A stretch of DNA of 33,065 nucleotides from Saprospiraceae bacterium. GTDB lineage: Bacteria > Bacteroidota > Bacteroidia > Chitinophagales > Saprospiraceae. The first letter of the stretch is position 1; every line of letters starts with the position of its first letter. Shown here one piece after another: positions 19,129 to 22,706 of this stretch. Both the position numbers and the translations under genes were made by a program. Under the pieces are notes generated by a model, which saw only the letters and a list, made by a program, of their open reading frames with translations, was not told the DNA's origin and did not search any database. The stretch lies in contig JAHQVP010000220.1 of assembly GCA_019634275.1 (NCBI GenBank), positions 1 to 33,065 on the forward strand, given 5' to 3'.

Positions 19129-19173
19129 TTCTCCTTATCTTAAACTTTGAACCGCTTAGAGCGTCAAAGGATA

Positions 19174-20472
19174 ATGTCAGCTATGCTAAGAATAATCGTT
19201 TGCTGTCTCCTGATGGCTACCCCTAGCTTCGTATGGGGGCAGACTGAATATCTACCTCCAATAGGCTCGGACGGATGGGAAACCATCTCTCCCGCAGCAC
19301 TGGATTGGGACGAAGGGGCACTTACATCGGTCCTAGATTTTGTGAAAGAATCCAACAGCAAAGCCTTTCTTTTGATGGTAGATGGTCGAATGGTCGTGGA
19401 GTCTTACTACGATCGATTTACTCGGGACAGTGTTTGGTACTGGGCATCCGCCGGGAAGTCTCTGGCGGCCGTCATGGTGGGCATCGCCCAGGAGGAAGGA
19501 CACCTCAACATCGAACAACCCACCGCCGATTTTCTGGGAAAAGGGTGGACCGCCGCATCATCCGAGCAAGAAGACGACATACGCATACGACACCAGCTGA
19601 GTATGTCCACTGGACTCAATGACAATCTCTTCTCTTGCACTTTGCCTCAATGTCTGCCTTATTTAACTGCACCAGACAGTCGCTGGTCCTATCACAATGG
19701 CCCTTACACGCTGACACATGAAGTGGTAAAGCAAGCTACGGGCACCAACTTTACCATCTATACAAACCTAAAGTTGGCTAACATCGGACTCTCGGGTGCA
19801 TGGATCCCACTTGATGGGAATCGGATCTTCTTCAGCACTCCTAGAAGCATGGCACGCTTCGGACTCTTTGTACTCAATCGTCTCGCCTGGAGCACCTGGA
19901 GCCCCTTCTCTTCGGATGCCTATTTCGATGCCATGATCCAACCCTCGCAGGAGCTCAACCAGTCTTATGGATACTTGTGGTGGCTTCATGGTCAAGATTC
20001 GCACATGCTCCCAGGCTTGCAGTGGGTCTTTGATGGTCCCATCAACCCAAATTGTCCTCCGGATGCCATTTCTGCCCTGGGTAAAAACGGCCAAGTATTG
20101 GATATCGTGCCAAGCCTCAAGCTGGTCCTCGTACGGATGGGCAATAATCCAGATAATGCCCTTGTACCCGTCCAATTTCATCGCACACTGTGGAATCTGC
20201 TTCAACAGGTCCTGCCAGAGGCCACCCCAAGCACTACGCATCTCTCCCCCAGCATATCGCTCTTTCCTAATCCTGTTTCCGATCGGGTGACGTTGGAGAG
20301 CACGTCGATTTCCTCGCCCAGTATCCAAATCCACGATCTCTCAGGACGCTTAGTGATGTCCCATCCCTGGCATAGTCTCCAACAAGAGATATCCATTACA
20401 GGCCTTGAACCTGGCATATACCATGTCTCGACAGGACACGAACTTCTGGGTAAGATCATAGTACGCCACTAG
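19174..20472 (+). CDS. Secreted serine hydrolase (beta-lactamase/class C family) with T9SS type A tail
   Basis: A signal peptide (MLRIIVCCLLMATPSFVWGQ) precedes a penicillin-binding/beta-lactamase-like domain. The catalytic Ser and Lys are in WASAGKS (S92 and K95 from this start), the tyrosine in YHN (Y173), and a third-box-like GKNGQ follows (about 303). The C-terminus (about 360-432) is a type A sorting domain: ISLFPNPVSDRVTLES, IQIHDLSGRLV, ITGLEPGIYHVS. So it is exported and secreted by the type IX system, possibly as an esterase, amidase or peptidase. The start could be ATG 19174 or 19183; AAAGGA (19166-19171) is 2 or 11 nt away, so spacing favours neither. Confidence 0.88.
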   Translation: MSAMLRIIVCCLLMATPSFVWGQTEYLPPIGSDGWETISPAALDWDEGALTSVLDFVKESNSKAFLLMVDGRMVVESYYDRFTRDSVWYWASAGKSLAAVMVGIAQEEGHLNIEQPTADFLGKGWTAASSEQEDDIRIRHQLSMSTGLNDNLFSCTLPQCLPYLTAPDSRWSYHNGPYTLTHEVVKQATGTNFTIYTNLKLANIGLSGAWIPLDGNRIFFSTPRSMARFGLFVLNRLAWSTWSPFSSDAYFDAMIQPSQELNQSYGYLWWLHGQDSHMLPGLQWVFDGPINPNCPPDAISALGKNGQVLDIVPSLKLVLVRMGNNPDNALVPVQFHRTLWNLLQQVLPEATPSTTHLSPSISLFPNPVSDRVTLESTSISSPSIQIHDLSGRLVMSHPWHSLQQEISITGLEPGIYHVSTGHELLGKIIVRH

Positions 20473-20475
20473 CGT

Positions 20476-20493
20476 CCGGGGGCATTCCTCCGG
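20476..20493 (+). terminator. Hairpin after the serine hydrolase gene
   Basis: CCGGGGG (20476-20482) and CCTCCGG (20487-20493) make a 7-bp stem with one G-T pair and a CATT loop, three bases after the stop codon. No T-tract follows, so it may be a stability hairpin or a weak terminator. Confidence 0.3.
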
Positions 20494-20813
20494 AAGGTCA
20501 TGCACGCTCGCTGGAGACCAGATTCGGGGCTAATTACTATTTCAATGAGCTAGCATCTGGCACACACTAGGCAAATGGTAACATTGTCAAACCAAACACT
20601 ATTGTCGGAACCTTCGATCGGCCTTAACCATTTTAGTTCATCTGATGTGTCAATGTCGACTAGCACAAAATACTGTTTGAGCTAACCCTAACGATTAAAG
20701 GCGTGAGAGAAATCTTAAAGAAAACAAAAGGTGTCTTACTAAAGATCAGCACTTTACAGCGAGTTGATTTTGTGCCGACATTGGCCAGCTGATTAACGTT
20801 AAGAAATGGTTAC

Positions 20814-20852
20814 AGCCGCGGCTTTTGCCGCTCTTTTGCCGCCAAAAGGGCG
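20814..20852. repeat. GC-rich palindrome, tandem 11-mer and hairpin block
   Basis: Within an otherwise AT-leaning spacer there is the 10-bp palindrome AGCCGCGGCT (20814-20823), then two tandem 11-mers, CTTTTGCCGCT (20822-20832) and CTTTTGCCGCC (20833-20843). The second copy is the 5' arm of a 10-bp hairpin (20829-20838 with 20843-20852, loop CCGC, one G-T pair). It resembles a REP-type extragenic palindrome rather than a terminator, since no T-tract follows on either strand. Confidence 0.5.
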
Positions 20853-21045
20853 CCGCCGGAGGCACTCAGAAGGAAGTTGATATAATCAGATAAAAAGACA
20901 ATCGAAATTCAACACGTAAAACCAGCCCATCAAATCGAGAATTAGCCAGATTCGGGAGGTCTCCCTGAAATTTAGCCTCTACCCTACTTGGTGTACAGAA
21001 CAAATGTTAAATAATCAGATTTAACAAAATCTGCCAAGGAGAAGC

Positions 21046-21117
21046 ATGCAATTAATTTACATTTGTAATGTTCCCGTGAACCGTGACGCCCTCCGGACGG
21101 ATAAAAATATCCCATAG
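21046..21117 (+). CDS. Candidate 23-codon small ORF / leader peptide
   Basis: ATG 21046 is preceded by AAGGAG (21036-21041) with a 4-nt gap and opens a 23-codon frame (MQLIYICNVPVNRD...) ending in TAG at 21115-21117. A perfect 7-bp hairpin (CAGATTT/AAATCTG, 21016-21033) lies just upstream, and the 5' arm of the terminator-like stem at 21089 lies inside the ORF. This layout (hairpin, ribosome site, short ORF, terminator) resembles a transcription attenuator, but no plus-strand gene follows. Three of 23 codons are Asn. It may be fortuitous. Confidence 0.2.
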   Translation: MQLIYICNVPVNRDALRTDKNIP

Positions 21118-21164
21118 TCTTATGATCTCATATCTATGACATATCCAAATCCGGAGGGTTTTTT
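21089..21164 (+). ncRNA. Rod-like structured RNA ending in an intrinsic terminator (candidate small RNA)
   Basis: Nested perfect stems: CCCTCCGGA/TCCGGAGGG (21089-21097 with 21150-21158, 9 bp), GGATA/TATCC (21099-21103 with 21142-21146), CATAG/CTATG (21113-21117 with 21134-21138) and TATG/CATA (21121-21124 with 21129-21132), directly followed by six T (21159-21164). About 23 of the pairs are consecutive levels of one long hairpin. Strand is set by the T-tract. A perfect -7 motif TACATTTG (21058-21065) would start a transcript near 21072, though no -33 TTG is visible. The 3' end is a good terminator; that it is an independent RNA is inference. Confidence 0.45.
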
Positions 21165-21269
21165 AATTCCCTCACATCACTGAGTTTCCGTTTGGTTTTA
21201 GACACCCCAAGTTTGACATCCAACTGGATGCCCGACTCTCTCAATATGTAATAAGTAGGTACGCCTCGG

Positions 21270-22706
21270 CTAGAACGAGACATTGCCAGGGGTTCGTGGA
21301 AATGGGATCACATCACGTATGTTAGACATGCCCGTCACAAACTGCACCATGCGCTCGAAACCAAGACCAAACCCGGCATGAGGACAGGTACCAAATCGTC
21401 GAATATCGAGAAACCATGACAGCTCCTCCTGTGGGATATTCATTTCAGCCATCCTACGCTCGAGCACATCAAGACGTTCTTCACGTTGTGATCCGCCTAT
21501 GATTTCCCCAATCCCTGGAAACAACACATCCATGGCACCCACCGTCTTTTGGTCGTCATTCAAACGCATATAAAAGGACTTGATCTGAGTGGGGTAATCT
21601 GTCAAGATTACCGGTTTCTTGCAGTGCTTCTCGACCAGGTAGCGTTCGTGCTCTGACTGCAGATCAGCGCCCCAGTCCTCGATGACAAATTGAAATTTTT
21701 TCTTCTTATTGGGTTTCGAGTTCTGAAGGATGCGGATGGCCTCGGTATAGGTAAGGCGCTCAAAATCCTCGGCCACACAGAATTCTAACTTCTCAATAAG
21801 CCCCATACTGGACCGCTGGTGAGCCGGTTTCTGAGACTCCTCCTGCTGCAATCGATCGTTTAAAAATTGCAGGTCTTCTGGATGAGCGGCTAGTACTTCC
21901 TTAATCAAATACTTCAGCATCTCCTCGGCCAGGTCCTGGTTGTCCTTCAGATTGGCGAAAGCCACTTCTGGTTCGATCATCCAAAACTCAGCCAGGTGAC
22001 GAGAAGTATTGGAGTTTTCAGCCCGGAAAGTCGGTCCAAAGGTATATACACGGCTGAGCGCCAATGCGCCCAACTCTGCTTCCAACTGACCCGACACTGT
22101 CAAGTTTGTCTCCTGTTGAAAAAAGTCCTTTGTAAAATCAACGGTACCGTCTTCCCGTCGAGGAGGATCTCCTGCCGGTAGTGTGGTCACTCGAAACATC
22201 TCACCGGCTCCTTCGGCATCCGAAGCCGTTATGATTGGCGTATGCAAATAGTAAAATGCACGATCGTGGAAGAACTTGTGAATGGCAAAAGACAGGGTAT
22301 GCCGGATTCTAAAGATTGCCCCAAAGGTATTGGTGCGAAAGCGCAGATGAGCAATCTCACGCAGAAACTCCAGCGAGTGCTTTTTCGGTTGGAGGGGATA
22401 GCGTTCTGGGTCTGATGTTCCATGGACTTCGATGGACTCTGCCATGATTTCGACGCGCTGCCCTTTCCCCTGCGACTCAACGACTTCTCCCGATATGCTG
22501 ACAGCAGCTCCCGGACTTAACTTTGCCAAGAGTGCTTCGTCTTCACGCTCATAGTCCACCACTGCTTGAATCGACTGTAGGGTGGTACCGTCATTAACTG
22601 CAACAAAACGATTGCTCCGAAATGTTCTTACCCATCCTTTGACTGTGACCTTAGAACCAAGAGGTTCTGTAGCCAGTATACTGCTGATTTTCTCATGCAA
22701 AGCCAT
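21270..22706 (-). CDS. asnS: Asparaginyl-tRNA synthetase
   Basis: A 478-aa class IIb synthetase that charges tRNA-Asn. An N-terminal OB-fold anticodon-binding domain ([19 protein letters not shown], about 20-110) is followed by the catalytic core. Motif 2 is [15 protein letters not shown] (227-241) and motif 3 is GFGLGFERM (445-453), with RDVIPFPR at 464-471. The Asn-type ending ([11 protein letters not shown]) and the specificity loop fit AsnRS rather than AspRS. It begins 11 bp after the batD stop, so it may be transcribed with the Bat cluster, although it could have an internal promoter. A 7-bp minus-strand hairpin (21215-21232) follows its stop. Confidence 0.96.

Follow-up and report, generated by a model that had tools for sequence, protein, structure and literature searches.

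The window analysed here, a 33,065-nt stretch of Saprospiraceae DNA, very probably contains an independent small RNA (sRNA) gene, located in the spacer next to asnS. As judged by comparison of the eight genomes that carry it, the element has a promoter box, an upstream site and a terminator stem, is under strong purifying selection and is present in one copy per genome. From these features we infer a transcript, a regulator, action in trans and a mode of pairing, and the complete reading, a regulated free-standing sRNA gene acting in trans by mRNA pairing, is favoured with some reserve. An independent small RNA had been considered plausible in an earlier, sequence-only reading of the same DNA, and this proposal is now supported by the conserved promoter box, upstream site and terminator, by base changes in the closing stem that compensate each other, and by extreme conservation in eight genomes. 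The candidate sRNA matches no Rfam family, since neither gathering nor permissive thresholds returned a relevant match to the element, and an open-access literature search revealed no paper combining Saprospiraceae and sRNA. The element would represent a well-delimited candidate sRNA family of about 95 nt for the Saprospiraceae; the present analysis supplies it with a covariance model, predicted 5' and 3' ends and the location of a probable regulator site.

Genomic setting and predicted fold

The spacer (20473–21269) contains no listed ORF and asnS is convergent to the element, in agreement with the gene-free convergent spacer described previously. The upstream gene ends at 20472 and thus 616 bp away, consistent with the earlier estimate of more than 600 bp; its product has a beta-lactamase fold and a type IX secretion tail. 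Six of the eight carriers exhibit the gene order sdhCAB > RNA > < asnS, one of them (G212) with a further gene between the element and asnS. In the window, an extra inserted gene and dispersed repeats separate sdhB from the element. Genome G001 is rearranged: there, the element is flanked by a CHAT/TPR protein gene and an enolase-superfamily gene, at a distance of about 7 kb from asnS.

Dispersed repeats make up the left half of the spacer (20528–20947). Spacer positions 56–332 recur at 78–86% in contigs C227, C357 and C202 of the same genome, parts of 365–475 recur at 79–91% in its contigs C59, C67, C357, C341 and C202, and the part 325–392 has several further copies in G001. Two different genes with a type IX C-terminal tail (Por_Secre_tail) flank the element on opposite sides in different lineages (window 19147–20472; L086 2237–3247, the second below the cut-off).

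Table 1. Coordinates and strands of the element, its predicted signals, its neighbour and the separate 6S-Flavo-like RNAs (window positions unless a genome and contig are given).
Feature	Position	Strand	Remarks
Inverted repeat ATGTTAAA-N8-TTTAACA, probable transcription factor site	21004–21026	+	ATGTTAAA with an inverted partner in 8/8 genomes
−7 box TACATTTG, consensus TAnnTTTG	21058–21065	+	8/8 copies
Predicted small RNA, ~95 nt	21070–21164	+	ends predicted from the −7 box (start) and the T tract (end)
Conserved 5' segment UCCCAUGARCCG	21072–21083	+	from alignments; without conserved pairing; candidate base-pairing region
Terminator hairpin	21089–21158	+	closing stem 21089–21097/21150–21158; near-invariant inner part 21099–21146
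Stem 1, 9 bp	21089–21097 with 21150–21158	+	CCCTCCGGA with TCCGGAGGG
Stem 2, 5 bp	21099–21103 with 21142–21146	+	GGATA with TATCC
Stem 3, 5 bp	21113–21117 with 21134–21138	+	CATAG with CTATG
Stem 4, 4 bp	21121–21124 with 21129–21132	+	TATG with CATA
T6 tract completing the intrinsic terminator	21159–21164	+	T tract in all copies
asnS, convergent neighbour	21270–22706	minus	
6S-Flavo-like RNA, L113	G112:C111:184974–185113	minus	model from three copies
6S-Flavo-like RNA, L114	G600:C678:3368–3503		model from three copies

The four stems of 9, 5, 5 and 4 bp and the tail of six T were found exactly where the sequence-only reading had placed them (Table 1), and stem 1 can be extended by one G-U pair (21088/21159). 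The predicted fold of 21085–21170 reaches −28.0 kcal/mol as opposed to −15.2 ± 3.1 kcal/mol in shuffled sequences (z = −4.16; 1 of 200 shuffles as good). The closing stem is GC-rich and is followed by the T tract, as in an intrinsic terminator of the element's own. The rod-like shape proposed earlier is one of two predicted folds: in the window, the second stem has a nearly isoenergetic rival in a GGATA/TATCC hairpin inside 21099–21112 (P 0.50 vs. 0.48). Each of the eight genomes contains both GGAU(A) partners. However, only the window and JAUILM have a predicted occupancy of about 50:50 for the two folds, which is strongly one-sided in four others, and a conserved two-state switch is not claimed.

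In the alignment of the eight copies, which was fitted to the model and thereby favours structure, pairing is found in 99.5% of cells; the compensatory changes are still readable by eye, as in the closing stem, where CCGG/CCGG in some copies corresponds to CTGG/CCAG in others. Five cells in three pairs of this stem have both sides changed, and the covariation score was reached by none of 500 shuffles, with slid controls far lower. Conversely, the 14 pairs further inside hardly vary in sequence, with a single broken cell in eight genomes, and therefore contribute no covariation evidence; comparison cannot prove that these stems form. The compensatory changes that, according to the sequence-only reading, would support the structure are seen in three pairs of the closing stem, but not in the inner stems, which are too invariant for covariation.

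Distribution and conservation

A BLAST search with the whole spacer yielded one striking match, in G001, the sole other sampled genome of the genus, which is limited to window positions 21057–21168. When the two are aligned, the hairpins are nearly identical and the flanks unrelated. BLAST of 199 family genomes revealed three more carriers, and a covariance model search of 398 family genomes identified exactly eight carriers of the 94-nt unit in three genera with one match each, all at E 9e-22 or better. Covariance models R1 and R2 score 107–108 bits in the window and 86–116 bits in the seven other genomes. The same eight carriers, seven species and the window, were recovered from genomes of about 85,000 species by exact matching of a 20-base pattern with 19 fixed positions; their records name Saprospiraceae, Lewinellaceae or Bacteroidia MAGs throughout, and each of the seven named carriers is a MAG. 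Among 398 genomes of the order, only the window's copy rose above noise, the other model hits being weak (21–24 bits). The element is absent from the asnS-adjacent loci of other family members, where the flanks examined are also devoid of an sdh gene. In an asnS tree, the carriers occupy three places without a resolved mutual order, and a single origin is neither shown nor excluded.

Across the eight genomes, which belong to environmental bacteria only distantly related to one another, the aligned unit has a mean pairwise identity of 0.84, as opposed to 0.68 for asnS DNA and 0.76 for its protein; the fourfold-degenerate sites of asnS are saturated at 0.28 identity. Identity amounts to 0.93–1.0 in the hairpin interior and drops to a background of about 0.25 within a few bases outside the unit. 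At the level of sequence, the alignment delimits a short, sharply bounded unit under strong purifying selection, whose strongest constraint maps to the hairpin interior and the 5' UCCCAUGARCC segment. Since this conservation is far above that of the silent sites in the neighbouring gene, the RNA probably does something sequence-specific.

Promoter box, upstream site and proposed mechanism

The conserved signal reaches further upstream than the hairpin delimited in the sequence-only reading, to about 21004. All eight copies contain the motif TAnnTTTG 50–55 nt before the core, which suggests, by sequence only, a promoter belonging to the element itself. TAnnTTTG is the −7 box of the primary sigma factor of Bacteroidota (PMC9723704, PMC7366714) and spans positions −12 to −5 (PMC9723704), so that transcription in the window would start near 21070 and the RNAs would measure 94–104 nt. 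A −33 box is weak or absent, and no −33 motif is identifiable in F. johnsoniae either (PMC7366714).

Further upstream, ATGTTAAA is invariant in all eight genomes and located 54–56 nt before the −7 box. In every genome an inverted partner (TTTAAGA in one carrier) stands either before or after it, which results in two architectures, either ATGTTAAA-N-TTTAACA, the type found in the window, or TTTAACATATGTTAAA. The inverted repeat is the sole match of its kind in the window and was not found in 100 shuffles, and among 114 loci the motifs of the upstream site are confined to those of the element. Elsewhere in the genome, the palindrome occurs at two places with 2 mismatches, as opposed to one such place for the reversed-pattern control. 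The inverted repeat is a probable binding site of a regulator, that is, a transcription factor.

In the proposed mechanism, a regulator binding this repeat at about −66 from the start would control a sigma-A-type promoter (TACATTTG), which in turn would drive transcription from near 21070 until RNA polymerase stops at the T tract near 21164. The resulting RNA of about 95 nt would comprise a short 5' tail followed by one long interrupted hairpin, the closing stem of which would double as the intrinsic terminator. The hairpin interior and the conserved 5' segment may then be the trans-acting parts, with base-pairing to mRNAs as their most probable mode. Provided that the element is an independent sRNA gene, trans-acting base-pairing is its probable mode of action; when up to eight neighbouring genes per genome were examined at their start regions, no consistent pairing signal emerged.

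Free-standing sRNAs encoded in intergenic regions are known from other Bacteroidota, namely GibS of B. thetaiotaomicron (PMC7366714) and Rfp18 of F. psychrophilum (PMC9723704). Both share with the element a predicted secondary structure and a conservation limited to one clade, which is Bacteroides for GibS, Flavobacterium for Rfp18 and the Saprospiraceae here, and for GibS the start has been mapped and the terminator is intrinsic (PMC7366714). The element differs from the two by its lack of an Rfam match and by belonging to a different bacterial family.

Alternative readings

An independent small RNA could also bind a protein, as a sponge or scaffold, instead of pairing with mRNAs. The near-invariant segment is the hairpin interior with its 14 pairs, which would equally suit a structure recognised by a protein; however, neither a known protein-binding motif nor an Rfam match was recognised, and this possibility is considered doubtful, with mRNA pairing more likely than protein binding. 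A related and rather unlikely proposal holds that the near-invariant interior, with its two mutually exclusive GGAU(A) partners, may be a structure that is recognised, or a switch, and would sequester a protein or act as a sensor. If true, the element would be a new riboregulator going beyond a simple antisense sRNA.

The hairpin might instead be merely a terminator without RNA function, ending sdhCAB transcripts or preventing antisense read-through into asnS. In most carriers, an intrinsic terminator is indeed located downstream of sdhCAB and faces asnS. However, termination requires the stem and the T tract and not the loop, yet it is the arms that vary while the loop is 93–100% identical, and the promoter box and inverted repeat upstream are conserved as well. 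Furthermore, a whole gene precedes the element after sdhB in the window and the G001 copy lies beside neither operon, which renders this explanation improbable. As a terminator that faces asnS, the hairpin could provide the protection from antisense read-through suggested in the sequence-only reading, but such a role explains neither the invariant loop nor the G001 copy 7 kb away.

In six of the eight genomes sdhB is immediately followed by the element, a position also compatible with an sRNA released by processing of the sdhCAB 3' UTR. An sRNA downstream of sdh genes is likewise found in enteric bacteria, where SdhX (RybD) is cut from the sdhCDAB-sucABCD mRNA by RNase E (PMC6393394). Unlike SdhX, the element has a conserved promoter box of its own and is untied from sdh in G001. 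Given that the predicted −7 box and the upstream site are kept in all eight genomes, and that the unit persists despite the gene inserted after sdhB in the window and the rearrangement in G001, an SdhX-like origin is quite improbable. The persistence of the element in G001 away from both asnS and sdh is counted in favour of a free-standing sRNA gene.

A small ORF or leader peptide might start from the ATG in CCCATGARC, as an ATG or GTG is present in seven of eight copies and five could encode M(N/S)R...KSHS(F/V/L)MISYL. In three of the eight copies, however, those of the window (VNRDALRTDKNIP) and JAUILM among them, the frame is broken, with a distance from ATG to stop that is not a multiple of 3, and G001 has no start codon. 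Since the reading frame is not kept, coding was rejected as highly improbable and the element is regarded as non-coding. A 22-codon ORF preceded by AAGGAG is found at 21046–21114, overlapping the promoter box and the 5' portion of the element; the other carriers conserve only the −7 box and the RNA itself, and not the start of this ORF or its upstream portion.

A mobile or repeated DNA element, as might be suspected from the different neighbours in G001 and the dispersed repeats elsewhere in the spacer, was rejected as extremely improbable on the basis of the single copy per genome, the synteny in most carriers and the absence of matches to viral contigs or plasmids, with only 29-nt chance matches in Listeria phages.

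The resemblance to 6S-type RNAs raised by the sequence-only reading was not supported. The element and 6S-Flavo RNA (RF01685) have in common a long interrupted, hairpin-like overall shape and their occurrence in Bacteroidota, but their sequences are unrelated, and the element, at about 95 nt, lacks a large two-sided central bubble. No 6S family appeared among the Rfam matches at E up to 10. However, RF01685 yields no hit above its cut-off in 120 family genomes, and a search for 6S by Rfam alone is therefore blind here. Three weak RF01685 hits elsewhere in the family align convincingly to 6S-Flavo, and the model built from them (R3) detects a separate 6S-like RNA of about 136–140 nt in two of the carriers, at 84.5 bits in G112 and at 43.5 bits in G600, but has no match in the window. 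As both carriers hold both RNAs, it is hardly conceivable that the element is the 6S RNA of the lineage, and this identity was rejected; for the window's own genome alone, which is incomplete and yielded no 6S RNA, the rejection is less firm.

Some Saprospiraceae thus encode a 6S-Flavo-like RNA that scores 34–38 bits with RF01685 as opposed to a cut-off of 85. It follows the pattern CTCAACA...CTAGGGCGGGCCTC...GGGGATTACCGAACC...GGGGTC and is about 134–149 nt long, as observed at loci L113, L114, L103, L104 and L105.
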